This document shows, in pieces, positions 1,572 to 63,612 of a stretch of 64,000 bases of DNA. Positions within the stretch are counted from its first letter, which is position 1. Each line of letters begins with the position of its first letter. The stretch lies in assembly GCA_017545525.1 (NCBI GenBank), contig JAFWMT010000007.1, positions 1 through 64,000 of the forward strand, in the 5' to 3' direction. Below the pieces are notes generated by a model, which had not been told where the DNA came from, did not search any database, and saw only the letters and a program-made list of their open reading frames with translations. The position numbers and the translations under genes were made by a program. The DNA is from Candidatus Saccharimonadota bacterium. GTDB taxonomy: Bacteria > Patescibacteriota > Saccharimonadia > Saccharimonadales > Saccharimonadaceae.

Positions 1572-1600
1572 TTGAATTATTCTCCCCTCCATGCTACTCT
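1572..1600 (+). promoter_or_regulatory. Promoter of the CdiA-CT-like gene
   Basis: TTGAAT at 1572-1577, a 17-base spacer and TACTCT at 1595-1600, preceded by TG at 1592-1593 (extended -10). The start codon follows after six bases, so the transcript should be leaderless. It gives the toxin-like gene its own promoter between it and the surface-protein gene. Confidence 0.55.
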
Positions 1601-1606
1601 CTCCGC

Positions 1607-1927
1607 ATGAAAAATCAAAAAATCGGAAAAGTCATCATCCCTGCAAACACCAACCCCTGGCCCCATGAAATAAAAGTAGCAACAATCTTGGCTTCAGCCG
1701 GCCATAACGTTATATTTCTCAAAAAGTCCAATCTGCATACAGCAGATATTCTTCTTGATAATATGGAATTTGAGATAAAATCTCCAAAATCAGCCAATTC
1801 AAATTCCCTGGAACATTTACTCAAAAAAGCCCTAAAACAATCGTCCAACATCATCATTGATACGGTTCAGATGAAAAACTCTCGTGATGATAAAGTTAAG
1901 AAATTTCTAATCTCTCAAATTAAGTAG
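1607..1927 (+). CDS. Standalone CdiA C-terminal tRNase-like protein
   Basis: 106 residues. It reads like the CdiA_C nuclease domain (contact-dependent inhibition toxin tip, also found as small free proteins in Gram-positive bacteria and mobile elements). Marks are PHEIKVATILASAGHNVIFL at 20-38, ADILLDNMEFEIKSPK at 46-61, which gives a D47...E56-x-K58 set like a PD-(D/E)XK nuclease core, and KALKQSSNIIIDT at 74-86. Known family members cleave tRNA; activity here is inferred. It lacks a signal peptide and any delivery domain, and no obvious immunity gene adjoins it. There is no Shine-Dalgarno site; an extended -10 promoter ends six bases before the ATG. It could be a toxin, an orphan immunity-escape remnant, or a housekeeping RNase. 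Confidence 0.65.
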   Translation: MKNQKIGKVIIPANTNPWPHEIKVATILASAGHNVIFLKKSNLHTADILLDNMEFEIKSPKSANSNSLEHLLKKALKQSSNIIIDTVQMKNSRDDKVKKFLISQIK

Positions 1928-1974
1928 AAAACAAATTAAAAAACTAATTATGATTACAAAACAAAGTCAAATTG

Positions 1975-2003
1975 TTGATATTTTATCGTTAATTTGATAT
2001 AAT
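1975..2003 (+). promoter_or_regulatory. Near-consensus sigma70 promoter of a short RNA
   Basis: TTGATA at 1975-1980, 17-base spacer, TATAAT at 1998-2003. Transcription should start near 2009-2011, directly in front of the hairpin described next. No open reading frame follows on this strand. Confidence 0.6.
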
Positions 2004-2008
2004 ACAAA

Positions 2009-2062
2009 TATCGAAGCACTCGCACGGCGCCGAAGGTACCTACCGCGAGAGCTTCTTTTTTA
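2009..2062 (+). ncRNA. Putative very short RNA (about 50 nt) ending in a terminator
   Basis: Starting just after a near-consensus promoter, the sequence folds as GAAGC-A-CTCGC (2013-2023) against GCGAG-A-GCTTC (2045-2055), followed by six T. The loop holds two perfect 8-base palindromes, CGGCGCCG (2024-2031 region) and AGGTACCT (2033-2040 region), which could each mediate RNA-RNA kissing. I recognise no known riboswitch or RNA family. The gene to its right is on the other strand, so this is not a leader for a downstream gene. It could also be a transcription terminator that happens to sit after a promoter-like sequence. Confidence 0.4.
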
Positions 2063-2070
2063 ATGTCAAC

Positions 2071-2099
2071 AAAAACCGCCCCAAAGAGCGGTTTTTATC
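2071..2099. terminator. Rho-independent terminator hairpin
   Basis: AAAAACCGC-CCCAAAGA-GCGGTTTTT. T-runs on both sides let it act on both strands; it follows the OB-fold gene that is read leftward and ends at 2112. Confidence 0.7.
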
Positions 2100-2111
2100 T
2101 GCCAAAAACAA

Positions 2112-2597
2112 CTACTGCACCGCCACAAAATCCGGCAAAGTTTTAATCACAAACACCAACGGTTCAGTTTCAACCACTTTACCCGTAATTATGACACGTT
2201 CCCCATCTTCCGGATACCCCTCGTCACCTTCAATAATAAACTTCGTTCCGACGCTTTTACCCTCATCTTCATCTTCCTCAATAATACTATAGTTGGTCAT
2301 CGGATGAGAGACTATCCCTTCAATTTCTACCACTTTTCCGGTCATTTCGCCATTCTGAATCGCTTTCGACAAATCATACATCGCTTCATAATCGCCATAT
2401 TTAACCGTCACATCCACATTATCTAAATCTTCTCCCTTTAATTCTTCGACCACAGTCTGCGAAGTCTCTTCATCGCCCCCCTCTTCACCAGTTTCACCTC
2501 TATTATTGTTGGCAATCACAATCCCCACCACAATCGCAATAACTACCACTACCACAATGCAGATGTAGATTAAGTTGTTGTTTTTCTTGTCTACCAT
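2112..2597 (-). CDS. Membrane-anchored OB-fold (tRNA_anti-like) protein
   Basis: 161 residues. One N-terminal transmembrane segment (about 9-28, LIYICIVVVVVIAIVVGIVI) is followed by an acidic linker and a domain from about 60 on that resembles tRNA_anti-like OB folds: a helix LSKAIQNGEMTGKVVEIEG, then strands ending in ERVIITGKVVETE. The orientation suggests the OB domain lies outside the membrane. The substrate is unknown. A Shine-Dalgarno AAAGGAG precedes the ATG, and an extended -10 TGC-TATAAT lies at 2627-2635 (minus strand). The protein stands alone between two terminators or promoters. The domain call rests on pattern only. Confidence 0.55.
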   Translation of the reverse strand: MVDKKNNNLIYICIVVVVVIAIVVGIVIANNNRGETGEEGGDEETSQTVVEELKGEDLDNVDVTVKYGDYEAMYDLSKAIQNGEMTGKVVEIEGIVSHPMTNYSIIEEDEDEGKSVGTKFIIEGDEGYPEDGERVIITGKVVETEPLVFVIKTLPDFVAVQ

Positions 2598-2662
2598 AAT
2601 AGCTCCTTTATAAGTTAGTTATTTTCATTATAGCATAACGATAAAAGGCTATTCAAACTAAG

Positions 2663-3304
2663 TTATATTACGTTCGCAAAAATCACTAAACGATGCGAGG
2701 CATCGCCATTACCATAAGAGGTCCCCGCGCAAGTCATGAGCGAAATATCATAGACCGCCCCCGTATCTTTATTGGTCGCGTTTGCCACCGCTCGCATATA
2801 ATTCCCACGACCATTTAGTTGCAATCTACCATTATCGGTATTTTTCTCATAAGTAATCACCTCGCGCACCTGATAATTCGTCACTACTCCATTATAAATG
2901 ACCGAAAACGTGCTACCAACACCAAGCCCAGTTAACGCCCCAAATACTCCAGCCGAATTATGCCCGTATAAAAATTTTGAACCATATTTATTAACATGGT
3001 TTCCCGCATTCACCGTCGTATCATTAACATCCACAATGTTGATTGTTCGTCCTAAAAACGAGATCGAATTAGTCGGGACAACCGGTCTAACTGGCGCCGG
3101 TGCTGACGTCAAAACCGATGCCTGCGTAGACAGTGGTTTCGATATTTCAACTACTACTGGCTCAGGTTCAGGTAAAGGCACCGTCTCAACAATACCAGTA
3201 TTATCAATCCCCGTAATACTAACCGTATCTGAAGCCATCAAAAACTCAGGAGAATTAATTATCCCTATTAAACTAACTAAAACCAATAAAAAAAGGCGTT
3301 TCAT
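2663..3304 (-). CDS. Sortase-like cysteine transpeptidase
   Basis: 213 residues with an N-terminal hydrophobic segment (4-18), a Pro/Val-rich linker (about 40-78) and a sortase-like core. The catalytic set is visible: His115 in LYGHN, Cys192 in DISLMTCAGT, and Arg205 in SHRLVIFA. Sortases join proteins bearing a sorting signal to the cell surface or to each other. Compared with classic class A/C enzymes the core is short, and the strand before Cys reads SLMTC rather than TLxTC. No LPXTG substrate is seen nearby. A consensus promoter lies upstream (3338-3366). It is a paralogue, in function class, of the sortase at 15024. Confidence 0.7.
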   Translation of the reverse strand: MKRLFLLVLVSLIGIINSPEFLMASDTVSITGIDNTGIVETVPLPEPEPVVVEISKPLSTQASVLTSAPAPVRPVVPTNSISFLGRTINIVDVNDTTVNAGNHVNKYGSKFLYGHNSAGVFGALTGLGVGSTFSVIYNGVVTNYQVREVITYEKNTDNGRLQLNGRGNYMRAVANATNKDTGAVYDISLMTCAGTSYGNGDASHRLVIFANVI

Positions 3305-3337
3305 CTTAAACTCCCAATAAATGACCTTTCTACCCTC

Positions 3338-3366
3338 ATTATATCACACTTTGCCAATTTTGTCAA
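3338..3366 (-). promoter_or_regulatory. Consensus promoter of the sortase-like gene
   Basis: On the minus strand: TTGACA (3361-3366), 17 bases, TATAAT (3338-3343) with an extended TG motif in front of it. The leader is about 27 bases, with GGGAG just before the ATG. Confidence 0.75.
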
Positions 3367-3431
3367 GATATGATACGATTAGATACAGCTAGGACAGGAG
3401 TACATTTAAAATATAGGGGGTGAACACTTTA

Positions 3432-4283
3432 ATGTTTAGTGATTTTTTAAATATAGAAGACGAAAGAGCAAAAGAGCTTTATCGCGAGATTATCGAAGCA
3501 GAATGGAAATTATCGGGGAGAGATTCTTGGGACGAGAACATCAAAAATGCTGATGAAATCGCCAATATTACAAAACAGATTATGGAATACGCAACACAAT
3601 CGTTAGTCTTAAGAGTCTACACAAGAGACTACAACCTAACCGGAGATTTTGCCGCATACGAGTCTGTTTCGGCACACGTAAATCTCTTAAAATACGTGCT
3701 CGAATGCGCGCTACGTTTTAAGTATCGTGGCAAAAAGCCCAGCGAAATTCCGTTTTATAACGAAATTCTCGAAGCCGCCGGATGGCACGATTTACCCGAA
3801 AATGTTATTGGAGACATTCCAGATAATAAAATCCAAAGTGATGACAGCAAATACCAAAAAGAAGTCGCCTACTGGAAAAAATTCAGTGACTTAAGCCCTG
3901 AATACGACCGTAGTTTCAATCAAAAAGTTAATCAACTTTTGAACGAAATGAGAACGGAAAAAACTCCGCAAGGTCGACTTCTTCGTGTCGCTGATAAAAC
4001 CGTTGCGGTTTTAATAGTATTATGTTATGACTTTAATCATTTCATGCCCTCGATATCCAAAGACAGCGAAAAAGCCTCGAAACTGAATCATAAAGGAATG
4101 CACATCTGTGGTCGCTTCAGACAACGTGACTTCCATGCCAGCGAACTCTGGACGGTTGACTATCTCATACTCCGTAGATTCGATTTACTTGATGATACCG
4201 GCTTCTTCACTGCTATCCTTATTATGGCTACCTTATTGGTCAACGGTGGATGGTATGAATGGCGCACTAAATCTTATCATTAA
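3432..4283 (+). CDS. HD-domain phosphohydrolase, YfbR/HDDC2-like
   Basis: 283 residues from ATG 3432, chosen over the in-frame GTG at 3420 because AGGGGGTGA at 3415-3423 is correctly spaced for it. A metal-binding HD pattern is visible: ESVSAH with His82, HDLPENVIGDI with His119-Asp120, and RVADKTVAV with Asp188. The phrase HD-x-PE-x(4)-GDI matches YfbR-type 5'-deoxynucleotidases. The family dephosphorylates dNMPs; the reaction here is inferred. The gene is followed by a terminator and then thyA-folA-glyA, a context that fits pyrimidine deoxynucleotide balance. The C-terminal hundred residues (HKGMHICGRFRQRDFHASEL onward) are not recognised. Confidence 0.6.
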   Translation: MFSDFLNIEDERAKELYREIIEAEWKLSGRDSWDENIKNADEIANITKQIMEYATQSLVLRVYTRDYNLTGDFAAYESVSAHVNLLKYVLECALRFKYRGKKPSEIPFYNEILEAAGWHDLPENVIGDIPDNKIQSDDSKYQKEVAYWKKFSDLSPEYDRSFNQKVNQLLNEMRTEKTPQGRLLRVADKTVAVLIVLCYDFNHFMPSISKDSEKASKLNHKGMHICGRFRQRDFHASELWTVDYLILRRFDLLDDTGFFTAILIMATLLVNGGWYEWRTKSYH

Positions 4284-4303
4284 CTGTCCTAACTTAAGAA
4301 TGG

Positions 4304-4331
4304 CCTCGAATTTACAAATTCGAGGTTTTTT
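4304..4331 (+). terminator. Terminator after the HD gene
   Basis: CCTCGAATT-TACAA-ATTCGAGG-like hairpin followed by six T, in the gap before the thyA promoter. Confidence 0.75.
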
Positions 4332-4333
4332 CA

Positions 4334-4342
4334 TGCTATAAT
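4334..4342 (+). promoter_or_regulatory. Extended -10 promoter of thyA-folA-glyA
   Basis: TGC-TATAAT ending at 4342. The thyA ATG is at 4364 with GGAGG at about 4355, so the leader is short but has a ribosome binding site. No clear -35 hexamer is present. Confidence 0.55.
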
Positions 4343-4363
4343 TTATTTGAATATGGAGGCTAT

Positions 4364-5329
4364 ATGAGTAAATTCGACGACCAGTATATTGATTTATGTC
4401 GCAGAATTTTAGATCACGGCGAAAAAATCACGAATTATCGGAAAAACGATACGCGCTCTTTAGATGTCTCTGCCGCCATTCCTGACCATACCGCCCAAGG
4501 CGCCTCAGAAGCTAGCACTATCCGCCTCCCCCACCAAATTCTCCAATTCGACCTCGAAGAAGAATTCCCGATACTGGTTTCAAAAAAAGTCGGTTTTAAG
4601 ACCGCCGTACTCGAAATACTTTGGATTTATCAGGTTGCTTCGAACGATGTCGAATGGCTAAAAGAACGTGGCGTAAAAATTTGGAACGAATGGGAAATCG
4701 ACGAAAAAGGCAATTACCAGGGTCGTAATCTTAACGAAATTTTCGCCAAAAAACATCTAACCGAACCTAAAACTGATTTTAAACATACTATTGGAACAGC
4801 CTATGGTTGGATTGTTAATCGCTATCAACTAATAGAAAATCTCATCGAGACTTTAAAGGTTAACCCCGGCAATCGCCGCATGGTTCTTTCTTTATGGCAA
4901 AACGAATGGCTAGAAACCGCCGCCCTGCCGAGTTGCGTTTGGAACTCAGAATGGAATTTAATCGATGGACGGCTTAACCTGCTCGTTACCTCTCGCTCCT
5001 CGGACGTTCCGCTTGGCCTTCCCTTCAATATTGTCCAATATGCCGTTCTTTGTCATCTTATCGCCCGTACGGTTGGTGCTCGCCCAGGCCTATTCACCTT
5101 TATGACCAACGATGCACACATCTACGAAAACCAAATTGATGGCATTAAAGAACAAATCAAGCGATATGATGAAGCTGTGAAGAACAATTCCCTACCGAAA
5201 GCTCCGAAACTATGGCTAAACCCGAAAGTTAAAAACTTTTATGATTTTGATAATTCCCGCGAATTAAAAGATATTAAATTAGAAAATTATGAACACCTCG
5301 GCGTAATTAAAATGCCAGTAACGGAGTAA
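4364..5329 (+). CDS. thyA: Thymidylate synthase (ThyA type), divergent active site
   Basis: 321 residues. The enzyme methylates dUMP to dTMP with methylenetetrahydrofolate, which becomes dihydrofolate. Family marks: the catalytic Cys191 in ALPSCVW, RSSDVPLGLPFNI at 211-223 (Arg211, Asp214, Asn222 matching the dUMP-binding QRSxDxFLGxPFN motif) and NDAHIYENQ for the C-terminal His/Tyr. The usual PCH around the nucleophile is SCV here, so the conserved His after Cys is Val, and the usual Gln-rich strand after it is NSEW. GGAGG precedes the ATG. The stop is directly followed by folA, which recycles the dihydrofolate made. Function as ThyA is likely; divergence in the active site is real. Confidence 0.9.
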   Translation: MSKFDDQYIDLCRRILDHGEKITNYRKNDTRSLDVSAAIPDHTAQGASEASTIRLPHQILQFDLEEEFPILVSKKVGFKTAVLEILWIYQVASNDVEWLKERGVKIWNEWEIDEKGNYQGRNLNEIFAKKHLTEPKTDFKHTIGTAYGWIVNRYQLIENLIETLKVNPGNRRMVLSLWQNEWLETAALPSCVWNSEWNLIDGRLNLLVTSRSSDVPLGLPFNIVQYAVLCHLIARTVGARPGLFTFMTNDAHIYENQIDGIKEQIKRYDEAVKNNSLPKAPKLWLNPKVKNFYDFDNSRELKDIKLENYEHLGVIKMPVTE

Positions 5330-5330
5330 T

Positions 5331-5804
5331 ATGTTTACGATTATTGCAGCTATTGGAAAAAATAACGAACTCGGTAAAAACAACCAACTTATTTTCCATC
5401 TAAAAGAAGATATGCAATTTTTTCGCGCTAAAACTACTGGGCATAAAGTCGTCATGGGCCATAAAACTTGGGATTCTTTACCGAAGAAATTACCCGGACG
5501 AGAGAATATCGTTGTCTCTAGGCATGATTTTGAAGGACCAGATTTAATCGTACACGACTTAAAGCAATTTATTTCAGAAAATAAGGACACCGATGAAGAA
5601 ATTTTTATCATCGGCGGCGGGACATTATATTTCGCTTTTCTTCCTTTCGCAAAAACTCTTTATCTCACAGAAGTTGATGCTTCAGATGAAAAAGCTTCGA
5701 CCTTCTTCCCTGAATTTGACCATAAAAAATATCATACTGAAATAATTAAGAAAGGTTCAGAAAATGGTTTAAACTATGCCTTTAAAAAATATGTTAAAAA
5801 ATAA
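5331..5804 (+). CDS. folA: Dihydrofolate reductase
   Basis: 157 residues, normal length. It reduces dihydrofolate to tetrahydrofolate with NADPH and so regenerates the cofactor spent by ThyA. Visible marks: IIAAIGKNNELG at the N-terminus, the acidic active-site Asp27 in HLKEDMQFFR, KVVMGHKTWDSLP (NADPH-binding strand and helix), PGRENIVVSR, and the IIGGGTLY motif near 96-103. The start codon lies one base after the thyA stop, with GGAG in the thyA end as ribosome binding site, so translation is probably coupled. The gene is followed eight bases later by glyA. Confidence 0.95.
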   Translation: MFTIIAAIGKNNELGKNNQLIFHLKEDMQFFRAKTTGHKVVMGHKTWDSLPKKLPGRENIVVSRHDFEGPDLIVHDLKQFISENKDTDEEIFIIGGGTLYFAFLPFAKTLYLTEVDASDEKASTFFPEFDHKKYHTEIIKKGSENGLNYAFKKYVKK

Positions 5805-5812
5805 GGAGTTAT

Positions 5813-7168: not shown

Positions 7169-7191
7169 AAAATAAGCCTCGGAAGGCTTAT
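7165..7191 (-). terminator. Terminator of the tRNA unit
   Basis: Read on the minus strand: ATAAGCCT-TCCG-AGGCTTAT followed by a T-run. It lies directly after the tRNA-Pro CCA and directly after the glyA stop on the other strand. Confidence 0.75.
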
Positions 7192-7193
7192 AG

Positions 7194-7270
7194 TGGTCTG
7201 GGTGACTGGACTTGAACCAGCGGCCTCGACTTCCCAAAAGTCGCGCGCTACCAACTGCGCCACACCCAGA
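7194..7270 (-). tRNA. tRNA-Pro (anticodon UGG)
   Basis: Acceptor stem TCTGGGT/ACCCAGA, D arm GCGC-AGTTGGTA-GCGC, anticodon stem CGACT with loop TTTGGGA, T arm CTGGTTCAAGTCCAG and encoded CCA (7194-7196). The loop gives anticodon TGG with G37, as expected for proline. Confidence 0.93.
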
Positions 7271-7275
7271 CGGCG

Positions 7276-7351
7276 TGGTGGAGTGTACGAGATTCAAACT
7301 CGTGACCTCTGCAATGCGAATGCAGCGCTCTATCAACTGAGCTAACACCCC
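7276..7351 (-). tRNA. tRNA-Ala (anticodon CGC)
   Basis: Acceptor stem GGGGTGT/ACACTCC has the G3-U70 wobble pair that identifies alanine tRNAs. Anticodon stem CTGCA with loop TTCGCAT gives anticodon CGC (reads GCG). The T arm is intact and CCA is encoded. It lies five bases upstream of tRNA-Pro and is probably co-transcribed. Confidence 0.92.
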
Positions 7352-7429
7352 GCATAAACATTATACCACAATAACCCAAAATCGCCAAGCAACTCTTAAT
7401 TATAATATAAAAATTAGTAATTTCAATAC

Positions 7430-7458: not shown

Positions 7459-7472
7459 AAAACTACAAAACT

Positions 7473-28514: not shown

Positions 28515-28724
28515 TTAGCTCTTTTCGAGCTTTTTTAATGCCTTTTTAATCGCTGGACGGTCAAATCCTACAATCCGTTCGTCCCCTATAATCGTAACCG
28601 GTACCGTCGAAATATCCTTTTCTTTTGTCGCATCTAATTCTTGATAATAAATGCCCATTGAATCTAACCAATCCATTAAAGCGTGGCAATATACGCAAGT
28701 TGGCGTTGTATAAATCTTTATCAT
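28515..28724 (-). CDS. Glutaredoxin-like thiol-disulfide protein
   Basis: 69 residues, a minimal thioredoxin fold. The redox motif is TPTCVYCHALMDWLD with Cys10 and Cys13, the cis-Pro is in STVPVTIIG, and GFDRPAI closes the substrate groove. Similar in length to NrdH-type glutaredoxins that reduce ribonucleotide reductase; partner unknown here. The start overlaps the end of the TrmH-type gene, so the two are co-translated. Confidence 0.88.
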   Translation of the reverse strand: MIKIYTTPTCVYCHALMDWLDSMGIYYQELDATKEKDISTVPVTIIGDERIVGFDRPAIKKALKKLEKS

Positions 28725-29221
28725 AAATTCATTATACCATACATCGCGATTCCGGCCGCTACCGAAACATTAAACGATTCTTTTTTACCTTTCATCGGTA
28801 TTTCTATAAATAAGTCAATTATCTCATACAACGAATAATCAATCCCATTTACTTCCTCCCCTAATACCAGTACCATCTTATCTGTTAATTCCGTTTTTAA
28901 TTTTGAATCATTTAAAGCGTAAATTGGTACATTTTCGATATTATTCTCTAATCCAACAATTTTCCACCCCTGTTCGTGCAGTTTCTTTAACCCCGCTAAT
29001 ATATCACCACATGAATAAATGTCGAGCATGTCCTCCGCCCCCAGTGCAGTTTTATGAATCTCTTTATCCAATTTTTCCCTTAAATGAGGTAAAGCATTCT
29101 CATCGTGAACCCTCGGCGTATAACCTGACAAAATTACTCTTTCAACACCAAACCCCTCCGCCGTCCTTAAAATTGCCCCGACGTTATAAGCTGATCGAAT
29201 ATTATGTAAAACTAAAATCAT
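28721..29221 (-). CDS. TrmH/SpoU-family RNA 2'-O-methyltransferase
   Basis: 166 residues. SPOUT fold marks: LHNIRSAYNVGAILRTAEGFG (motif 1, with the catalytic Asn/Arg), VLVLGEEVNGID (motif 2) and IEIPMKGKKESFNVSVAAGIAMY (motif 3, knot). Such enzymes methylate ribose in tRNA or rRNA with S-adenosylmethionine. Which RNA is modified cannot be read. The ATG directly follows the leuS remnant stop, so its expression depends on that gene's promoter. Confidence 0.9.
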   Translation of the reverse strand: MILVLHNIRSAYNVGAILRTAEGFGVERVILSGYTPRVHDENALPHLREKLDKEIHKTALGAEDMLDIYSCGDILAGLKKLHEQGWKIVGLENNIENVPIYALNDSKLKTELTDKMVLVLGEEVNGIDYSLYEIIDLFIEIPMKGKKESFNVSVAAGIAMYGIMNL

Positions 29222-30029: not shown

Positions 30030-30038
30030 ATTATACCA
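30030..30038 (-). promoter_or_regulatory. Extended -10 promoter of leuS remnant-trmH-grx
   Basis: Minus strand TGG-TATAAT; seven bases (30023-30029) separate it from the GTG start, so the transcript is leaderless. Confidence 0.6.
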
Positions 30039-32569: not shown

Positions 32570-32578
32570 ATTTTACCA
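32570..32578 (-). promoter_or_regulatory. Extended -10 promoter of the S41 protease gene
   Basis: Minus strand TGG-TAAAAT, seven bases from the ATG; no Shine-Dalgarno site. Confidence 0.5.
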
Positions 32579-33782: not shown

Positions 33783-33791
33783 ATTGTATCA
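33783..33791 (-). promoter_or_regulatory. Extended -10 promoter of the CHAP hydrolase gene
   Basis: Minus strand TGA-TACAAT, six bases from the ATG. It allows expression apart from ftsEX. Confidence 0.5.
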
Positions 33792-35629: not shown

Positions 35630-35638
35630 ATTTTAGCA
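35630..35638 (-). promoter_or_regulatory. Extended -10 promoter of ftsEX
   Basis: Minus strand TGC-TAAAAT, six bases (35624-35629) from the ATG. Confidence 0.5.
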
Positions 35639-43472: not shown

Positions 43473-43481
43473 TGCTATAAT
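43473..43481 (+). promoter_or_regulatory. Extended -10 promoter of surface protein A
   Basis: TGC-TATAAT ending at 43481; seven bases to the ATG at 43489. This placement decides the start, because an in-frame Met at 43447 lies inside the preceding terminator. Confidence 0.6.
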
Positions 43482-43488: not shown

Positions 43489-45759
43489 ATGATAGGGTGT
43501 GTGTGCCTAAAAAATAAAAAATTTAAGGCAATCTCCATGATTTTGCTATTCATCTTTTCCATATCATGTTTTTCCAATAAACCAACCAGCGCTCTAACCT
43601 ATACAGACCAGGTAGGAGTCAAGTTTACTTTTAATACAGCCTTATCTATGACGGTATCTTCTTCTAATATAAATATATATAATCTTTCGCCAAATGATAC
43701 TAGTGATAGTAATTATGTATTAATAAATGTAGCCACTAATTCAGTAGCTGGTTATACTGTTACTGCTTCAGTAGGTGACTCTTCTAATGCTACGACTGAT
43801 TTAAAGAATACAGCGAACAACTCTTATACTTTTACTAGTTTAGCTACTACTGACAACCTAGCTTCTATGAGTAACGCTAATGCTACTTCTAATGGTAGAT
43901 GGGGATATTCATTTTCATTAGACAACGCCTCGACATGGTCTAACTACAGAGGTTTACCATTATATACTGCTACTGCTGCTACTATTTATGATACTAATAC
44001 ACCATTAGATAGTAAGTTAATTTACTTTAAGATTGGGGCTAAAGCTTCAGCTAGTCAAGTATCTGGAGTCTATCAGAATACGATTAATTTCTATGTGGTG
44101 TCTAAGGGAGGTGGTAACACTGGCATCAATGGACTAGTAGAATATATGCAAGATTTTGCAACGCTTAGTTCTTCTCAATATGACGCTGTTAAAAATAGTA
44201 TGGTAGTAGGTGAACAATACAAATTAATTGATAATCGTGATAATAATACTTATTGGGTAGCTAAACAAGCTGATGGTAATATCTGGATGACCCAAAATCT
44301 AGACCTTTGTATTGGCTGTACTGGTGTAGCTACTTTGACTTCTAATAATACTGATCTTAATGTGTCTGGGACAGCTCCATATACTACTGGTTATTCTACT
44401 TCTGGTGGTGTGATTACATGGACACCAGATTGGGCAACTTCTGATTATGTCATTTCTGGAACTGATACTCAAGCCAGTGGATTCACTGCAGGTGGTTCTA
44501 TAGAAGGTTCGGACGTCTATGTATATACTTCAAATTCTACTGCGAATGACACGATTTACACTTCTTTATCTGAATGTACCACTGCTGGACATACTGAAGA
44601 CGAATGTGAACATTATCATAGAGGCAACTATTATTCCCTTATATCTGCAACGGCTGGAAGCACTAGTATAGATCAGACATTAGATAATTCCATTTGCCCA
44701 GCTGGATGGAAATTGCCAGATTCTTATGGGGACCTCCTTCTCCACTCCAATATTGTCACCGATATAAGTAGTTCTTCTTATACATATGCTAGTAATGGGT
44801 TAAATAATATCAGAACGAATCCTTTGTATTTAGTGCGAAGTGGACAATTGTCAGGCAAAAACCTTGGCAGTAGATTAGGAAATGTAGCATTTTATAATAC
44901 TAATGTAGGGGAATGGTTTGAATTTAACGATTCGGAAATAGGATCGGTGACTATTTATATGCCACAAGCACTAGCGTATTTTAATTCGGTGCGATGCGTT
45001 GCGCGTGAATCAGGAGGTTCAATTTCGGCCGATGATATTAATGATCTAACTTATCTACAAGATTTTAATCTGCTCAGTTCTAGCGATAAGGCAGCGGTAA
45101 AGTCTAGCATGGCAAGCAATACGGTTTATACTTTAATAGATAGTCGCGATAGCCAAAGTTATCAAATTGCGAAGTTAGCAGACGGGAACATCTGGATAAT
45201 TGATAATTTAAATCTTGGGTATTCTACTATTTCTACGGATTTAACTAGAACCAATACAAATCTAAATACTACTGTTACTGCAGCTACATTTAATGGTTGG
45301 AAAAAGACAAGTGGATCAGCTACTTATACTAATGGAGAATATATCTCAAGAAATGGTACAGATTCTACTTCTGGAACAAAATATGGAACATTATATAATT
45401 ATTGCTCTGCTTCAGCTGGGACTATCTGTACCGATTCTAATTCGTCTGATGCACAATACGATCTTTGTCCGGCAGGGTGGAGAATGCCTACAGGTGAAAA
45501 TGACGGTGAGCTTTATAATTTAATGATGTCTTATTCAAATGTGAGATATAATGCCTCGTTGAATAATGGCGGACCAGCCTTTGCTCTTGCTGGAGAGTTT
45601 TACTCTAGCACCATTAATTCGAATGATATAGGAAACTATTGGAGTTCTACTCGCACTGATACTACCAGCATGTGGATATGGTTTACTGATGGTTGGGAAG
45701 TAGATTACGGTGGCGCAAATCGTCGTTATGGCTATTCAATTCGTTGCATATTGAAATAA
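43489..45759 (+). CDS. Surface protein with two FISUMP domains (copy A)
   Basis: 756 residues from ATG 43489 (the upstream Met lies in the terminator hairpin and ahead of the -10). Signal peptide about 1-35 (KAISMILLFIFSISCF then TSALTYTD). A Thr/Asn/Ser-rich N-terminal domain (about 36-215) with NVATNSVAGYTVTAS is shared with the other copies. First FISUMP domain about 220-515 (YWVAKQADGNIWMTQNL, CPAGWKLP, VRCVAR), second about 520-756 (YQIAKLADGNIWIIDNL, CPAGWRMP, SIRCILK end). No LPXTG. Closely related to the inverted gene 50577-52814. Leaderless promoter. Probably exported to the surface; ligand unknown. Confidence 0.85.
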   Translation: MIGCVCLKNKKFKAISMILLFIFSISCFSNKPTSALTYTDQVGVKFTFNTALSMTVSSSNINIYNLSPNDTSDSNYVLINVATNSVAGYTVTASVGDSSNATTDLKNTANNSYTFTSLATTDNLASMSNANATSNGRWGYSFSLDNASTWSNYRGLPLYTATAATIYDTNTPLDSKLIYFKIGAKASASQVSGVYQNTINFYVVSKGGGNTGINGLVEYMQDFATLSSSQYDAVKNSMVVGEQYKLIDNRDNNTYWVAKQADGNIWMTQNLDLCIGCTGVATLTSNNTDLNVSGTAPYTTGYSTSGGVITWTPDWATSDYVISGTDTQASGFTAGGSIEGSDVYVYTSNSTANDTIYTSLSECTTAGHTEDECEHYHRGNYYSLISATAGSTSIDQTLDNSICPAGWKLPDSYGDLLLHSNIVTDISSSSYTYASNGLNNIRTNPLYLVRSGQLSGKNLGSRLGNVAFYNTNVGEWFEFNDSEIGSVTIYMPQALAYFNSVRCVARESGGSISADDINDLTYLQDFNLLSSSDKAAVKSSMASNTVYTLIDSRDSQSYQIAKLADGNIWIIDNLNLGYSTISTDLTRTNTNLNTTVTAATFNGWKKTSGSATYTNGEYISRNGTDSTSGTKYGTLYNYCSASAGTICTDSNSSDAQYDLCPAGWRMPTGENDGELYNLMMSYSNVRYNASLNNGGPAFALAGEFYSSTINSNDIGNYWSSTRTDTTSMWIWFTDGWEVDYGGANRRYGYSIRCILK

Positions 45760-47255: not shown

Positions 47256-47284
47256 ATTTTACAATGTATCGTCTTCTAAGTCAA
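47256..47284 (-). promoter_or_regulatory. metG promoter inside the end of the upstream gene
   Basis: Minus strand: TTGACT (47279-47284), 17 bases, TAAAAT (47256-47261); six bases to the ATG. The stop codon of the Pro-rich gene (47259-47261) is part of the -10. Confidence 0.6.
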
Positions 47285-48259: not shown

Positions 48260-48268
48260 TGTTATAAT
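48260..48268 (+). promoter_or_regulatory. Extended -10 promoter of ldh
   Basis: TGT-TATAAT ending at 48268; six bases to the ATG at 48275. No Shine-Dalgarno site and no clear -35. Confidence 0.6.
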
Positions 48269-50576: not shown

Positions 50577-52814
50577 TTACTTCAACACACAACGAATTGA
50601 ACCACCAACATAGCGATACATCACATCAGGCTCATAGAACTCACCATCAGTCAAGCCAATTTTCATACGTACATTACTTCCACTATCTCGTACCGAACTC
50701 CAATAGTCTGTATAATTATCTACATCTTGCGCTCCAGACGTGTTAAAGAAGCCAGAAAGGGCAACAGCAGCTCCACCGCTAGATATAGAAGCATGTATTT
50801 TATTATTGTTGTAAGCACTATTATTCAGTAATGTAGCAAGTTCATTGTCAGTCGGCAATCTCCATCCTGCCGGGCAAATATCATAGGCCGCATCGGAACT
50901 ATTGGAAGCGGTACAAATAGTTCCAGCTGAAGCAGCACAGTAATTATATAATGTACCATATCTCGTTCCGGAAGTAGAATCTGTCCCAGAAACTGGAATA
51001 AATTCACCAGACGTATAAGTTTGTGAACCGCTTGTCTTTTTCCAACCATTAAATGTAGCTGCAGTAACAGTAGTATTTAGATTTGTATTGGTGCTAGTTA
51101 AATCCGTAGAAATAGTAGAATACCCAAGATTTAGATTATCTACTATCCAAACATTACCGTCAGCTAGTTTTGCAATCTGATAGCTCTGACCATCACGATT
51201 ATCTATTAATGTGTAAGTTGTATTACTTGCCATACTATTAATAATCGACGATTTTTCACTTGAACTTAATCCGTTGAAATCTTGTAGATACTTTAATCCT
51301 GCAAGCCGCGCAACGCACCGTACTGAATGTGGCATAGTTAATGCTTCCGGAATAAAATTTTTAACAAATGAAATACCAGAGCTGTCAAATATTAACCAAT
51401 TAGAAGCGGCAGGAAAATAGTAGCCGCCACTTGCTAATTGGCTCAGTTTTTTTCCATTCATTCGACCACTTCTCACTAAATAAAGCGGATTATTTCTCAT
51501 TTTTATAAAACCATTACTAGTATATGCATAATCAACAGTATTCGTAATAACATCAGAACTATATAATAAACTAGCATATTGAGAAATACTTGGCAACTTC
51601 CATCCAGCTGGACAAATAGAGTTCGCTGAAGGATATTCCATACTAAGACTACCTGGGAATCCGGCAGTTGCCGCTCGATAGGTATAATAATTACCTCTAT
51701 GGTAGTGAGCGCATTCGTCTTCAGTATGTCCAGCGGCAGTACAAGCGGATAAGGAAGTGTAGACTGTGTCATCTGAAGTAGAGCTAGAAGTATAAACATA
51801 AACATCAGAACCTTCTATTGAACCGCCTGATTTATAGGCATTAGCTGAAGTATCGGTACCTGAAATGACGTAATCCGAAGTTACGTGGTTTGGTGTCCAA
51901 GTAATCACATTGCCAGAGGTAGAATATTCTTGCTCACCTGAAACATTTAAATCAGTATTCTGAGAAGTCAGCGCGGCCACACCAGTACAACCAATACAAA
52001 GATCTAGGTTTTGTGTCATCCAAATATTGCCATCAGCTTGTTTAGCTACCCAATATTCTCTACCATCACGATTATCAATTAGTTTATATTGTTCGCCTAC
52101 TACCATACTATTCTTTACTGTGTCCAGTTCGGATGATGTTAGCGAAGCAAAGTCCTGCATATATTCTACTAATCCATTAATACCAGAATTATTTACCGGA
52201 TTAGTTACTAAATAAAAATTTACTGTATTGGCATAGGTTCCAGCAACCTGTTCAGCAGAAGCCTTAGCTCCAATCTTAAACCAAATATTCTTATTCTCAG
52301 CAGAATCAGTGCTATATAAAGTTTTTCCAGTAGCAGTATATAAAGGTAGGCCAGAATAATTAGACCAAGTAGAGCCATCATTAGTAGAAAAAGAGAAACC
52401 CCATTTACCATTAGAAGAGACATTAGCATTATTCATAGAAGCTAGACTATCTGTCGTAGCTAGACTATTTAATGTATATGAGTTATTAGCTGTATTCTTT
52501 AAATCAGTTGTAGCATTACCACTATTACCTACTGTAGCAGTTAGAGTATAGCCATTAACTGTATTAGTAGCTACATTTACTATAATAATGTTACTGTCAC
52601 TATAATCGCCTGTTGCTAGATTTGATATTACTAGATTATTAGAAGACACTGACATACTTACGGCTGGATTAAAGGTAAATTTTACATATACTGAGTCAGT
52701 GTAGGTTAAGGCATTCACTTGTTTACTAGAAAAGCATGACATAAAAAAGATAAATAACAAAATACCAAACACAATCCTAGTCGTATTACCTCTTAGGCCT
52801 TTGCACCTTACCAT
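50577..52814 (-). CDS. Surface protein with two FISUMP domains (copy B)
   Basis: 745 residues from ATG 52814; a Met further upstream (52877) lies ahead of the -10 and is rejected. Signal peptide about 10-36 (RIVFGILLFIFFMSCF, VNALTYTD). Domain order is as in copy A at 43489: a Thr/Asn-rich N-terminal domain, FISUMP 1 (YWVAKQADGNIWMTQNL, CPAGWKLP, VRCVAR) and FISUMP 2 (YQIAKLADGNVWIVDNL, CPAGWRLP, SIRCVLK end). It lies in opposite orientation to copy A with metG, the Pro-rich gene, ldh and sbcB in between. No LPXTG. Leaderless promoter. Confidence 0.85.
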   Translation of the reverse strand: MVRCKGLRGNTTRIVFGILLFIFFMSCFSSKQVNALTYTDSVYVKFTFNPAVSMSVSSNNLVISNLATGDYSDSNIIIVNVATNTVNGYTLTATVGNSGNATTDLKNTANNSYTLNSLATTDSLASMNNANVSSNGKWGFSFSTNDGSTWSNYSGLPLYTATGKTLYSTDSAENKNIWFKIGAKASAEQVAGTYANTVNFYLVTNPVNNSGINGLVEYMQDFASLTSSELDTVKNSMVVGEQYKLIDNRDGREYWVAKQADGNIWMTQNLDLCIGCTGVAALTSQNTDLNVSGEQEYSTSGNVITWTPNHVTSDYVISGTDTSANAYKSGGSIEGSDVYVYTSSSTSDDTVYTSLSACTAAGHTEDECAHYHRGNYYTYRAATAGFPGSLSMEYPSANSICPAGWKLPSISQYASLLYSSDVITNTVDYAYTSNGFIKMRNNPLYLVRSGRMNGKKLSQLASGGYYFPAASNWLIFDSSGISFVKNFIPEALTMPHSVRCVARLAGLKYLQDFNGLSSSEKSSIINSMASNTTYTLIDNRDGQSYQIAKLADGNVWIVDNLNLGYSTISTDLTSTNTNLNTTVTAATFNGWKKTSGSQTYTSGEFIPVSGTDSTSGTRYGTLYNYCAASAGTICTASNSSDAAYDICPAGWRLPTDNELATLLNNSAYNNNKIHASISSGGAAVALSGFFNTSGAQDVDNYTDYWSSVRDSGSNVRMKIGLTDGEFYEPDVMYRYVGGSIRCVLK

Positions 52815-52821: not shown

Positions 52822-52830
52822 ATTATATCA
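52822..52830 (-). promoter_or_regulatory. Extended -10 promoter of surface protein B
   Basis: Minus strand TGA-TATAAT, seven bases (52815-52821) from the ATG; same spacing as copy A. Confidence 0.6.
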
Positions 52831-53499: not shown

Positions 53500-54231
53500 T
53501 TATTCGTCTTCTGCTGCTTCGTCATAATCCATGCCGTAATAGGCATACTGCAACTTCATAAATGCCGTATCCAATTCACTCGCCAAACTCTTTAAGGGGT
53601 CTTCTTTCGCCACTGTCATAATAATAAACTTCAAAGGCTTTTTATACCCACCACAAATTTCCATCGAATCACCATATGCATATTCTTGCGAAACTGTCAC
53701 TTCTCTTATCCCTCCAATTTTCATTCCTTCAACACCCATATTCCAACCATCAATCATTCCAAGCGCCGGATCTAGGATCTTACCGAATTTCGTCGGATTA
53801 TCATTATCATCAAATGACGAATCAAACACCGACTCATCCGCACACCAACCTACATAATATGCTAAATAATTCGAACCATCTTCTGCTACCGTCGCCCCTG
53901 AGCCACTCTTCAAATCACGCTTCTGCACCCCATTTTCGTTCGCTGATGTTTCATTATAAGCCTTAATTTCCGACTTATACTTTATAAACTCATCATAGTC
54001 ACTCTTCGTAGCCTTCGAAAACTCATCAAGCTTCTCTTCATACGCTTCAGTCAACTCCGCAACCTTCTCTTCATCTACCTCCACATTCTCAGATGTATCC
54101 GTCGCACTTGATTTTCCCCCATTAATCACAATCGCCGCATAACTCGCAATAATCGACCCTAGCATAATTATCGCAATTAAAATGATAAAAAATCTTTGCT
54201 TCCCACTCGTTTTTAACTCTTTCTCTTCCAT
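53500..54231 (-). CDS. Membrane-anchored FKBP-like peptidyl-prolyl isomerase
   Basis: 243 residues. One membrane segment (about 13-35, RFFIILIAIIMLGSIIASYAA), a charged helical linker (about 50-95), then an FKBP-type domain (about 105-215): YYVGWCADESVFDSSFDD, MIDGWNMGVEGMKIGGIREVTVSQEYAYG (positions split here by the usual hydrophobic pocket) and LKFIIMTV. The pocket residues are only partly conserved, so activity is likely but not certain. It would face outward and help fold exported proteins. Leaderless start: TGG-TATAAT nine bases before the ATG. Confidence 0.8.
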   Translation of the reverse strand: MEEKELKTSGKQRFFIILIAIIMLGSIIASYAAIVINGGKSSATDTSENVEVDEEKVAELTEAYEEKLDEFSKATKSDYDEFIKYKSEIKAYNETSANENGVQKRDLKSGSGATVAEDGSNYLAYYVGWCADESVFDSSFDDNDNPTKFGKILDPALGMIDGWNMGVEGMKIGGIREVTVSQEYAYGDSMEICGGYKKPLKFIIMTVAKEDPLKSLASELDTAFMKLQYAYYGMDYDEAAEDE

Positions 54232-54240: not shown

Positions 54241-54249
54241 ATTATACCA
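54241..54249 (-). promoter_or_regulatory. Extended -10 promoter of the FKBP gene
   Basis: Minus strand TGG-TATAAT, nine bases from the ATG; no ribosome binding site. Confidence 0.5.
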
Positions 54250-55535: not shown

Positions 55536-55537
55536 AA

Positions 55538-58590: not shown

Positions 58591-58647
58591 AAATAACTCC
58601 TGCTCACATTATAACACAAGCAATTCAAATGTAAACTCATGTTTATT

Positions 58648-60150: not shown

Positions 60151-60176
60151 TAACGCTACCCTCCATTTAATAATTA

Positions 60177-61361
60177 TTAATCTCGCGAGAACAAATCACG
60201 CGTATACACTTTTTCTTCAACATCTTCAAGTTCCGGCGTCATCCGATTCGCTACGATAATATCGCAATCTTTTTTAAATTGCTTTAAATTATTAGTTACT
60301 TTAAAACCATTATATTCATTATCTTTTAAGGTCGGTTCATAAATCAAAATATTCTTATTCTTTTTCTGAATATTTTTTATCACATCATGAATCGCCGCAT
60401 CTCGGAAATTATCCGAGTCCGATTTCATCGTCAAACGATAAATCCCCACTAATTTCGGATCATTCGCTAGTACCTCATCCGCAATGAACTGTTTGCGCGT
60501 AATATTCGCTTGGACAATTGCCTTAATTAAATCTTGCGGCACATCTTTGTAATTAGCCAATAATTGCTTAGTATCTTTCGGCAAACAATACCCGCCATAT
60601 CCAAACGATGGATTATTATAATGTGTGCCAATTCTCGGGTCTAAAGAAATTCCATTAATAATACTTTTCGGGTTAATTCCTTTTACTTCAGCATAAGTAT
60701 CAAGCTCATTAAAGTATGCTACTCGTAACGCCAAATAAGTATTTGCAAATAGTTTTACTGCCTCAGCTTCTTTGCTATCCATCGTTAAAACTTGCACATC
60801 AGTCGCAAGCGATGCTTCGCGCAAAAGCTCTGCAAATTTTTGCGCCTCTTCTGAGTATGAACCGACAATAATACGCGAAGGATATAAATTGTCATATAAT
60901 GCCTTCCCTTCTCGCAAAAATTCCGGCGAAAAGAAAACATTGTCAATCTCATACTTTCGTCGAATCATGTTCGTGTAACCAACCGGAATAGTCGATTTTA
61001 TCACAATCGTCGTCTTCGGATCATCCAAAGAAATCACTTTCTCGATAATATCTTCTACGGAACTTGTATTAAAATAATCTTTTTCCGCATCATAGTCCGT
61101 CGGCGTTGCAATTATGACGTAGTCAGCGTCCCGAAAAGCTTCCTCCCAATCCAGCGTCGCCTTTAAGTTTAAAGCCCTCTCGCCTTTTTCAGCCTCATCA
61201 AAATACTTCTCTATATACTCGTCTCGAATTGGCGAGATAAGTTTATTTACCATTTCCACTTTTTCTGGCACGATATCTACCGCTACGACTTCATTATTTT
61301 GGGATAATAATACCGCGAGCGAAAGCCCGACATATCCAACCCCAGCTACAGCAATTTTCAT
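60177..61361 (-). CDS. ugd: UDP-glucose 6-dehydrogenase
   Basis: 394 residues. NAD-binding [18 protein letters not shown] at the start, [29 protein letters not shown], the substrate region [15 protein letters not shown] and the catalytic Cys in [14 protein letters not shown] (about 258-271). Oxidises UDP-glucose to UDP-glucuronate, the substrate of the epimerase encoded just upstream. GGAG before the ATG. Sequence is of the short, Gram-positive/Streptococcus capsule type. Confidence 0.94.
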
Positions 61362-61434
61362 TTTTTCTCCACATTAAAAATTATAATAACCTACACATAT
61401 TATATATTATAATAGCCTCAAGGTCAACTAACCA

Positions 61435-62475
61435 TTACCCGTAAAACTCTTTATACCACTCCGCAAATTTTCTTAGACCTTCACGTAAAGAAGTGTGCGG
61501 TTTAAATCCAAAATCTTTTTCAAGAGCCGAAGTATCTGCATATGTCACCGGCACATCGCCCGGCTGCATCGGCACTAATTCTTTGTGCGCCTCAAAATCG
61601 TAGTCTTCCGGTAGAACTTTCGCTCGAATTAATTCTTCTTGCAAAATTTGTACAAAATCCAATAAGTTCTCCGGATTTGAATTACCAATATTATAAACTT
61701 TATATGGCGGAATCGGTAAACCATCCTCACCATCTTTTTTCTCCGGCGCCTTCGCCATTACCCGCATTACACCTTCTACAATATCATCAATATAAGTAAA
61801 ATCTCGCTTACATTTTCCAAAATTGTATATCTGAATTTTCTCGCCTTTTATTAGTTTATTCGTAAAACCAAAATATGCCATATCCGGCCGCCCCGCCGGA
61901 CCATAAACTGTAAAAAACCGCAACCCTGTCGACGGTATATTATATAGTTTCGAATACGCATGCGCGAGCAGCTCGTTAGATTTTTTCGTCGCCGCATAAA
62001 GACTTACTGGATTATCAACTTTATCTTCTACCGCGAACGGTACTTTTTTATTACCACCATACACCGACGAAGACGAAGCATACACTAAATTCTCTACTGG
62101 ATAATGCCGACAAGCCTCCAATATATTGTAAAAACCAATCAAGTTTGATTCTATATAAGCGTCAGGATGATCAATCGAATACCTCACTCCAGCCTGCGCA
62201 GCAAGATTAACTACGATTTCTGGATGGTATTTTTCAAACAACGCATTTACAGCTTCCTTGTCCGCTAAATTACCTTTAATAAAAATAAAATTAGGGTACT
62301 TTTCTAACTCTTTGAGGCGATACTCTTTTAGTTTTACGTCATAATAATCATTAACGCTGTCGTAGCCAATAACTTTAGCTTTGGGGTTTTCTTCGCAAAA
62401 ACGCTTAACCAGTGCCGAACCAATAAACCCCGCTGTACCGGTAACTAAAATTGTTTTTTTATCAAAATCAATCAT
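61435..62475 (-). CDS. UDP-glucuronate 4-epimerase-like SDR enzyme
   Basis: 346 residues. Extended SDR: NAD-binding VTGTAGFIGSALVKRF, GYDSVNDYYDVKLKEYRLKEL (a mark of the glucuronate epimerase branch), AQAGVRYSIDHPDAY, catalytic YAATKKSNELLAH (Tyr-x3-Lys), FTVYGPAGRPDMA. Converts UDP-glucuronate to UDP-galacturonate, which fits the adjacent ugd. Substrate is inferred from motif and context. Leaderless: TGG-TACAAT seven bases before the ATG. Confidence 0.88.
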   Translation of the reverse strand: MIDFDKKTILVTGTAGFIGSALVKRFCEENPKAKVIGYDSVNDYYDVKLKEYRLKELEKYPNFIFIKGNLADKEAVNALFEKYHPEIVVNLAAQAGVRYSIDHPDAYIESNLIGFYNILEACRHYPVENLVYASSSSVYGGNKKVPFAVEDKVDNPVSLYAATKKSNELLAHAYSKLYNIPSTGLRFFTVYGPAGRPDMAYFGFTNKLIKGEKIQIYNFGKCKRDFTYIDDIVEGVMRVMAKAPEKKDGEDGLPIPPYKVYNIGNSNPENLLDFVQILQEELIRAKVLPEDYDFEAHKELVPMQPGDVPVTYADTSALEKDFGFKPHTSLREGLRKFAEWYKEFYG

Positions 62476-62482
62476 AATGAAT

Positions 62483-62491
62483 ATTGTACCA
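62483..62491 (-). promoter_or_regulatory. Extended -10 promoter of the epimerase-ugd unit
   Basis: Minus strand TGG-TACAAT, seven bases from the ATG. Divergent from the glycosyltransferase promoter 80 bases away. Confidence 0.5.
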
Positions 62492-62562
62492 TAAAAACCC
62501 TATTATAATACACCATCGGCTCATATAAGATAACAAAAAATATAAGAAATCTACACCTATCA

Positions 62563-62571
62563 TGCTATACT
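62563..62571 (+). promoter_or_regulatory. Extended -10 promoter of the glycosyltransferase
   Basis: TGC-TATACT ending at 62571, six bases from the ATG at 62578. Confidence 0.5.
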
Positions 62572-62577
62572 ATTAGC

Positions 62578-63612
62578 ATGAAATTTGTATTACTATATAA
62601 TTGTCCACTAAAAAAATGCGACAAACTATGGCTGTATAACGGCCTTAAAAAATATGGCGACGTTAAAATAGTAGGCACCCTAACGAATAAGACATATTTC
62701 AGGATCTCAAGATTCATACCCAAATTAAGAATAGGTAAAATATTGGTACTGATACTAATTTTTATACAAAGTATCCGAAGTATAGTTGTCTCCAATAAAG
62801 ATGACATTATTATTACTTGGGCTAGCAAACAAGGTTGCATACTTAACAATATCTGCAATAAACTCCATATAAAAAGAAAAATTGTTTCTTTTATGTGGAT
62901 CGCAATACCGTCCAAAAACAAAAAAATGATTTATCGCTCTTTTAATGATGATAACTTTTTGCCGATTATTAACAACGAGCTATTAAAGGGTCAGTTTATT
63001 AGTTTATTTAATTTAAAAAAATGGAATGGTTTATTTTTACCAGATGTATTCGACGACAGTCAATCCTTCAAAAAACCCGTATTTCAAACTGATAATAGAT
63101 TCGTTTTTTCCGGTGGTGTCAATAACAGGGATTGGGAAACATTGCTACGAGTCGCCCAAAAAACTCCAAATATTCAATATATAATCGTCAGCGACAAAAA
63201 CAAAATAAAGAATACTATACCAAAAAATGTGACACTCAGAGAAAACCTATCCGCCAAAGACTATTATTCCTTAATGGAAAAATCATTTATAACTATATGT
63301 CCACTCAAAGAAAATCGAACATCTGGACTTATAAATATACTCAAATCATCCCAATTTGGAATTCCATGCATAAGTGCTGAATTTGAAATTACTAAAACAT
63401 ATTATTCAACAAGCCTAATGAAGATTTTGCTCTACGAAAAATGCAACACAGAAGACCTAAAGCAAAAAGTGGAATACATATTTAATTTAAACAAAGACGG
63501 ATATCTCAAAATAGCAAGCAATTTTCAGAATAATATTCGCGAGAAGTTTAACCCAGAAAATAATATAAAAATGTTAATAAAAGAACTAAAAAATAGAAAT
63601 TGGCTCACGTAA
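62578..63612 (+). CDS. GT-B type glycosyltransferase
   Basis: 344 residues. N-terminal half MKFVLLYNCPLKKCDKLWLYNGLKKYG and a hydrophobic helix (about 57-75) that may touch the membrane. C-terminal half FVFSGGVNNRDWETLLRVAQ (about 180), VTLRENLSAKDYYSLMEKS and ICPLKENRTSGLINILKSSQ followed by GIPCI, which is the donor-binding end of a family 4-like enzyme (the second Glu of E-x7-E is weak). Lys/Asn/Ile-rich and clearly more A+T-rich than the genes to its left, so perhaps recently acquired. Likely adds a sugar to the surface polysaccharide. Leaderless start, divergent from the epimerase gene. Confidence 0.75.
   Translation: MKFVLLYNCPLKKCDKLWLYNGLKKYGDVKIVGTLTNKTYFRISRFIPKLRIGKILVLILIFIQSIRSIVVSNKDDIIITWASKQGCILNNICNKLHIKRKIVSFMWIAIPSKNKKMIYRSFNDDNFLPIINNELLKGQFISLFNLKKWNGLFLPDVFDDSQSFKKPVFQTDNRFVFSGGVNNRDWETLLRVAQKTPNIQYIIVSDKNKIKNTIPKNVTLRENLSAKDYYSLMEKSFITICPLKENRTSGLINILKSSQFGIPCISAEFEITKTYYSTSLMKILLYEKCNTEDLKQKVEYIFNLNKDGYLKIASNFQNNIREKFNPENNIKMLIKELKNRNWLT

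Follow-up and report, generated by a model that had tools for sequence, protein, structure and literature searches.

Leaderless transcription is known in Deinococcus, Actinobacteria and Lactococcus, and it is reportedly named in the title of the GeneMarkS-2 paper. Here, we describe putative leaderless promoters in a saccharibacterium (TM7; Candidate Phyla Radiation, CPR), based on a stretch of 64,000 nucleotides (nt; positions 1 to 64,000 of contig JAFWMT010000007.1), hereafter called the window, on the remaining genome (720,812 bases in 9 contigs) and on related genomes. To judge from these sequences, the organism very probably uses one promoter type in two start modes: a -10 element adjacent to the start codon, which would yield a leaderless mRNA, or one about 17-31 nt upstream, which would yield a short leader with a Shine-Dalgarno (SD) site.

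In Deinococcus radiodurans, according to PMC12340547 (2025), which cites de Groot 2014 for the leaderless genes of Deinococcus, the -10 element lies about 6-7 base pairs (bp) before the open reading frame (ORF) in nearly one third of the genes. The system described here is alike in its spacing, in its predicted leaderless mRNA and in the SD-type motif on other genes, so that the 6-7 nt spacing singled out by the earlier note on the window is not a unique trait. It differs in belonging to another phylum and in its strong TRTGNTATAAT motif, the Deinococcus motif being TANNNT, mostly TACACT (PMC12340547); the main text of that paper never uses 'divergent', 'bidirectional' or 'extended'. Lactococcus has, like our organism, a leaderless signal composed of TATAAT and a strong TG peak, which was read as a replacement of the -35 box by Zheng 2011 (PMC3160421), where leaderless genes are reported for Lactococcus, Mycoplasma and other groups; in the available text of that paper, neither 'TM7' nor 'candidate division' occurs and no shared divergent promoters were seen. 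In Escherichia coli and Salmonella, one pseudo-symmetric -10 element supports two-way transcription (Warman, Grainger; PMC12825309, PMC10268837), as we propose for palindromic promoters of the genus studied here. The start sites of the E. coli and Salmonella promoters are usually 18 bp apart, with positions -7 and -11 coinciding (PMC10268837), and the main texts of both papers contain neither 'leaderless' nor 'start codon'. Our literature search, with many subscription papers and bioRxiv preprints outside its scope, found no report of a leaderless mode for the CPR. The shared divergent palindromic promoters are the new part of the present analysis, and those that we found lie outside the window.

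Promoter spacing and start modes

Genome-wide rates were obtained from 344 of 721 kb (48%; the window and 14 further stretches) and from pattern searches of the whole genome, with the reversed pattern as control for motif counts. In the window, 8 of 19 TATGNTANNAT sites are followed by ATG at 6 or 7 nt, and any other distance up to 39 nt accounts for 0-2 sites; in the whole genome, TATGNTANNAT-N4-10-ATG has 96 matches, compared to 3 for the reversed pattern. The sharp peak at 6-7 bases, which the earlier note had named as the genome-wide check of its proposal, is present in the 344 kb: ATG follows the 98 TATGNTANAAT sites at 6 nt in 34 cases and at 7 nt in 10, with 0-7 cases at each other distance up to 59 nt, whereas none of the 7 occurrences of the reversed motif has ATG at 6-7 nt. 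A frame of at least 60 codons is opened at 38 of these 44 sites. The spacing had been called rigid, which applies to most genes but not to all, because 8-9 nt also occur, at 18 of the 89 sites with 6-9 nt in our own sample (8 nt in 7, 9 nt in 11) and at 21 of 57 dnaG loci.

The bases around the start codon show a start-site signature. The base before ATG is T in 67% and C in 29% of 294 saccharibacterial sites with 6 nt spacing and T in 69% and C in 25% of the 16 sites with 7 nt in our own genome; the preference is weaker at 66 sites with 7 nt in a wider set (T 50%, C 20%, A 23%). The seventh base after the -10 element is A at 82% of the 65 sites with 8 nt, many of which are palindromes, and at 79% of the 38 sites with 9 nt, where T precedes that base in 61%. 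The same preference for A is seen in leadered promoters, whose seventh base is free of any constraint from a start codon: 82% of the 28 sites of our own genome and 81% of the 89 wider-set sites have it. Because leaderless and leadered promoters share A at the seventh base, we infer that transcripts start at the start codon at a spacing of 6-7 nt and 2-3 nt before it at 8-9 nt.

In front of the required TG, the 294 sites have T in 74%, followed by A in 70% or G in 28%, and their -35 region is weak and T-rich. TGN thus stands directly before TATAAT with a weak or absent -35 box, the arrangement of an extended -10 promoter, which the weak -35 boxes fit; metG is the exception. The genome contains one match for sigma-70 region 2. 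RpoD is 341 amino acids (aa) long, and by Pfam the sigma protein of this genome has regions 1.2, 2, 3 and 4. The region 3.0 sequence VHMVE (RTIRIPVHMVETINK) is present in 80 of 80 sigma loci (the best 80), and it includes the His and Glu that, from work in E. coli, we take to be the residues contacting TG. The best 80 relatives of RpoD all belong to Saccharibacteria or TM7, many of them from the ruminant gut and one from an oral strain (HOT-351), which places our organism in the CPR.

The spacing is mostly conserved among orthologs. In metG, the -10 element lies at 6 nt in 24, at 7 nt in 2 and at 9 nt in 2 of 30 orthologs including our own (28/30), and TTG at spacer 17 accompanies it in 23 of the 30. 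TTG is absent from the 4 orthologs with TGN before the -10 element, and one further ortholog (L218) has neither, so that the -35 box and TGN seem to replace each other. In the 30 ldh orthologs, again including our own, the -10 element stands at 6-7 nt in 22; six of the other eight have it at 18-33 nt together with a G-rich, SD-like stretch, and in two the first match lies at 13 and 14 nt, which we kept as counted.

To quantify the two modes, leaderless-type promoters were called with a weight matrix built from the loci of other genomes (threshold T=7, nearby alternative starts allowed) and SD sites by matches of 4 or more bases. Gene starts were called from coding signal alone with a crude caller, which makes the rates for first genes approximate. 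At this threshold, 37 of 76 divergent genes had a leaderless-type promoter, which in 30 of them stood at the called start itself, 18 had an SD site, none had both and 21 had neither; among all 284 genes, a single one combined the leaderless motif with an SD site at its called start. The transcripts of about half of the first genes appear to begin at, or a few bases before, the first codon. The split initiation strategy proposed in the earlier note is therefore retained, but not its expectation that nearly all first genes would be leaderless. Internal pseudo-starts scored 0 of 266 (5 of 266 with another draw), and the same test on 100 kb of E. coli K-12 identified 1 of 30 divergent genes as leaderless-type. 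Genes less than 30 nt behind a co-directional neighbour (n=94) had an SD site in 47 cases, a leaderless-type promoter in 17 and both in 1. The peak of TGNTANNNT at 6 nt comprises 23 of 147 first genes (divergent or with a gap above 60 nt), 14 of 50 genes with gaps of 21-60 nt and 9 of 87 with smaller gaps.

The distances fall into two classes. Of our own 190 first genes, with starts called blind to these signals, 56 have TGNTANNNT at 6-9 nt, 3 have it at 10-18 nt, 30 at 19-31 nt and 2 at 32-35 nt. When any ATG opening a 60-codon frame is counted, 89 fall at 6-9 nt, 5 at 10-11 nt, 5 at 12-18 nt and 43 at 19-31 nt, and the 13 at 33-39 nt indicate that part of the 19-31 nt class is background. 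Leadered promoters stand about 17-31 nt from the start codon, and SD sites are found at 25 of 28 such sites in our own genome, compared to 109 of 300 for all genes, and at 67 of 89 in the wider set (13 of these sites at 17 nt), compared to 662 of 1802. These leadered sets omit 7 of 35 own and 18 of 107 wider sites that have another start codon 5-10 nt after the -10 element. A search for 16S rRNA, the carrier of the anti-SD sequence, gave no match in 25 genomes of the genus including our own, several of them 97-100% complete. At the shortest own leadered site, with 17 nt, the predicted leader would open with the SD site itself.

Presumably, the one detected sigma-70 factor reads both modes. In the first, the start codon would follow a -10 element (usually TRTGNTATAAT, sometimes assisted by a -35 box) after 6-7 nt, and RNA polymerase would initiate at the seventh or eighth base past the element, where the A of the start codon stands. 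The leaderless mRNA would then be translated from its 5'-terminal AUG; a spacing of 8-9 nt would produce a leader of 2-3 nt. In the second, the same element about 17-31 nt upstream would generate a short leader that just holds the SD site. Leaders of about 4-10 nt would be rare, and about half of the closely spaced later genes have an SD site.

Divergent genes around probable palindromic promoters

The region upstream of dnaG was compared at 57 of 58 loci, one being left out because its alignment began late. TGN-TANNNT lies at 6-9 nt in 52 of them (6 nt in 30, 7 nt in 1, 8 nt in 17, 9 nt in 4). Many of these regions are palindromic, such as CATATGCTATAATTATAGCATATG, with an extended -10 element and a start codon on either strand. 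The divergent neighbour of dnaG encodes a 204-aa protein lacking a Pfam match, and TGN-TANNNT precedes its start codon by 6-10 nt in all 47 loci where both genes were located. The two start codons are 14-20 bp apart with overlapping -10 boxes in 28 of the 47 loci, our own genome having the 17 bp form; the other 19 loci have a distance of 38-183 bp and a separate adjacent -10 element for each gene, and no locus falls in between. The long intergenic forms at three loci (L042, L052 and L061) contain inserts, yet both genes keep their adjacent TGN -10 elements; in the inserts of L052 and L061, GGCCGAACGGCC lies within a hairpin-like stretch. A single switch between the shared and the separate form of dnaG is not supported, as the tree of 48 rows requires 9 changes and well-supported branches force 7 or more of them.

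The palindrome core TGNTATAATTATANCA was found in 70 of 78 genomes of the genus, with 208 sites and 1 control site, and in 16 of 216 other genomes of the class, with 16 sites and 3 control sites. We examined 68 palindromic sites, an uneven sample since the loci were mostly taken around dnaG-rpoD or by the palindrome itself; all carry a symmetric -10 element on both strands, as in bidirectional promoters, and start codons flank 38 on both sides, 25 on one side and 5 on neither. Of the 38 two-sided palindromes, 29 belong to dnaG and 9 to four further gene pairs, by Pfam names thymidine kinase/uracil-DNA glycosylase, AAA-domain/APH-type, SpoU methylase/glutaredoxin, and Mur ligase with a protein that looks membrane-bound by eye. 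In the shortest form of the palindrome, the T of each TG is base-paired with the A that opens the opposite start codon.

These observations suggest that in this genus the 14-20 bp of two overlapping extended -10 boxes probably make up the entire divergent intergenic region and give two leaderless or near-leaderless mRNAs, for the dnaG-rpoD operon and the 204-aa protein, for thymidine kinase and uracil-DNA glycosylase, and for others. Because an extended -10 element dispenses with the -35 box, such a promoter would fit between a start codon and the neighbouring gene, and two divergent leaderless genes could share a palindromic double -10 element. Two outward-facing boxes that overlap by 2 bp would shrink the intergenic region to 14-20 bp, and the polymerase would occupy the site in one or the other orientation but not in both at once. 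Unlike in E. coli and Salmonella, the shared element consists of two full TATAAT boxes overlapping by 2 bp, the products would be leaderless or nearly so, and, because of this box overlap and the start-site offset, the predicted start sites are 15 bp apart instead of the 18 bp of the commonest Warman-type layout. A distance of 15 bp lies inside the range of 7-25 bp used in PMC10268837.

Alternatively, the palindrome in the divergent gaps could be the operator of a regulator and not a pair of overlapping promoters. A perfect palindrome of such length is what a dimeric regulator typically binds, and 30 of the 68 sites are not flanked by start codons on both sides. We nevertheless consider an operator unlikely, because the sites precede unrelated genes and because 19 of 47 dnaG loci keep separate adjacent -10 elements, the palindrome resulting from the 2-bp overlap of the two boxes.

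Alternative explanations

A second alternative is that the adjacent -10 element is not the main promoter: the mRNA would be leadered and start at a distal promoter, and the AT-rich motif would keep the start region unstructured. Initiation regions that are AT-rich and SD-less are known in other bacteria. The motif, however, is a strand-specific extended -10 element of 9-11 bp with reversed controls near zero in the genus, and the start-site signature stands at a fixed offset from it. The -35-like TTG of metG behaves as a promoter element would, since 23 of 30 orthologs have it at spacer 17 and it is missing where TGN is present, and with gaps of 14-20 bp a distal promoter would need to lie within the opposite gene. 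This alternative is very improbable, and the assignment of the motif as a promoter is strongly supported.

The start codons could also be misplaced, with the true starts downstream and preceded by SD sites, so that the genes would be ordinary short-leadered ones. Some Deinococcus genes were indeed re-annotated with starts downstream of the -10 element (PMC12340547), and our own start calls are uncertain at 43489, 52814 and 62578, where the caller differed. Against this stand the orthologs of dnaG, metG and ldh, most of which align from their first residues with the spacing kept, and the near exclusion of the two signals, motif and SD site occurring together in 1 of 284 genes and 0 of 76 divergent genes (T=7). 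We regard misplaced starts as a slight chance at most. Chance in an AT-rich genome, where TANNNT is common (the window has 35-44% GC), is rejected by the controls, namely 3 reversed matches versus 96, 0-1 versus 86-102 in four genomes of the genus, and a leaderless-type rate of 0.5% at 1848 internal ATGs (T=7).

Several observations weigh against the model of two start modes and shared promoters. Initiation factor 3 (IF3) disfavours leaderless mRNA and is present in the genome, which also rules out its loss as the cause of the leaderless mode. At T=7, 21 of the 76 divergent genes fit neither mode, and the 17 of 94 closely spaced downstream genes with a leaderless-type promoter show that such promoters also occur elsewhere than at first genes. 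Background contributes to the ATG counts beyond 12 nt, and outside our own genome the two modes are separated less sharply, with 11 ATGs at 16 nt and 20 at 17 nt in the wider set. At dnaG, the element lies at 10 and at 11 nt in one locus each, and three loci have a -10-like box without TGN. Among the 68 palindromes, 25 are flanked by just one start codon and 5 by none, and 4 of the 38 two-sided ones have 10-11 nt on one or both sides. Leaderless transcription is still well supported because of the spacing peak, the start-site signature, the spacing in orthologs and the near exclusion of SD sites, all of which are properties of the DNA sequence.

Promoters of the window and breadth across the CPR

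All twelve promoters listed in the earlier note were found at the distances it gave, and that of metG is present as TTGACT-N17-TAAAAT, 6 nt before ATG 47249 (Table 1). The absence of SD sites at these genes was confirmed at 9 of the 12 starts with the gene caller and by eye at 1607, 48275 and 62578; the caller had missed 1607 and 48275 (ldh) and had given 62578 a later start at 62926. Likely first genes with an SD site are present in the same window at 4364, 24424, 42447 and 56403.

Table 1. Candidate promoter elements in the window and the genes that follow them
Element	Position	Strand	Distance to start codon	Gene
TGCTACTCT, weak extended -10	1592..1600	+	6 nt before ATG 1607	106-aa ORF, CdiA_C domain
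TGGTATAAT, extended -10	28731..28739	-	6 nt before ATG 28724	69-aa glutaredoxin-like ORF
TGGTATAAT, extended -10	30030..30038	-	7 nt before GTG 30022	anticodon-binding domain protein
TGGTAAAAT, extended -10	32570..32578	-	7 nt before ATG 32562	S41 peptidase
TGATACAAT, extended -10	33783..33791	-	6 nt before ATG 33776	CHAP domain protein
TGCTAAAAT, extended -10	35630..35638	-	6 nt before ATG 35623	ABC ATPase, then FtsX-like gene
TGCTATAAT, extended -10	43473..43481	+	7 nt before ATG 43489	756-aa Fib_succ_major protein
-10 TAAAAT, no TGN	47256..47261	-	6 nt before ATG 47249	metG
-35 TTGACT, within upstream coding sequence	47279..47284	-	spacer 17	metG
TGTTATAAT, extended -10	48260..48268	+	6 nt before ATG 48275	lactate/malate dehydrogenase, ldh
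TGATATAAT, extended -10	52822..52830	-	7 nt before ATG 52814	745-aa Fib_succ_major protein
TGGTATAAT, extended -10	54241..54249	-	9 nt before ATG 54231	FKBP-type isomerase
TGGTACAAT, extended -10	62483..62491	-	7 nt before ATG 62475	NAD epimerase/dehydratase
TGCTATACT, extended -10	62563..62571	+	6 nt before ATG 62578	344-aa ORF, no Pfam match

The weakest of the twelve precedes 1607 (-10 TACTCT), a small ORF (1607-1927) with a match to the CdiA C-terminal domain, and the gene at 54231 would have a leader of 3 nt. The -10 element of metG includes the TAA stop codon of the upstream gene. Fib_succ_major domains are C-terminal in two large proteins (43489-45759 and 50577-52814), each with a leaderless-type promoter. 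The leaderless-type gene at 28724 is an addition to the earlier list; its glutaredoxin-like name is based on likeness by eye to a protein of another locus (L126) that matches Pfam Glutaredoxin. Its promoter lies in the final part of the SpoU methylase gene in front of this ORF (28721-28739, minus strand), whereas at L126 members of the same two families face away from each other across a shared palindrome.

Of 379 genomes of the phylum, 351 contain TGNTATAATN6ATG at least once, although single matches may be due to chance, controls being mostly 0-2 per genome. Four genomes of the genus have 89, 100, 86 and 102 sites (control 0-1 each), other members of the family 1-55, another family (f81) 15-37 and the rest mostly 0-20. 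The extreme counts in this genus rule out a trait equally strong throughout the CPR, and other CPR genomes had few leaderless promoters in small samples. In the samples of two genomes, G209 (L174-L178) and G145 (L179-L183), there were hardly any SD sites and hardly any leaderless promoters.

A large part of bacterial diversity belongs to the CPR, whose signals for gene starts have received little study. Leaderless starts would alter the way genes are called, promoters designed and expression modelled in these bacteria. Because transformation and the use of reporters are possible in Saccharibacteria (PMC10633639), the idea of two start modes is testable in this group, and the near either/or choice of leader length, together with orthologs that flip between modes (ldh), would provide a natural series for asking why both modes persist. 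The shared palindromes would rank among the smallest promoters serving two genes. If they act as proposed, a single polymerase site would serve two genes and couple them, without a leader and without space for any other control.

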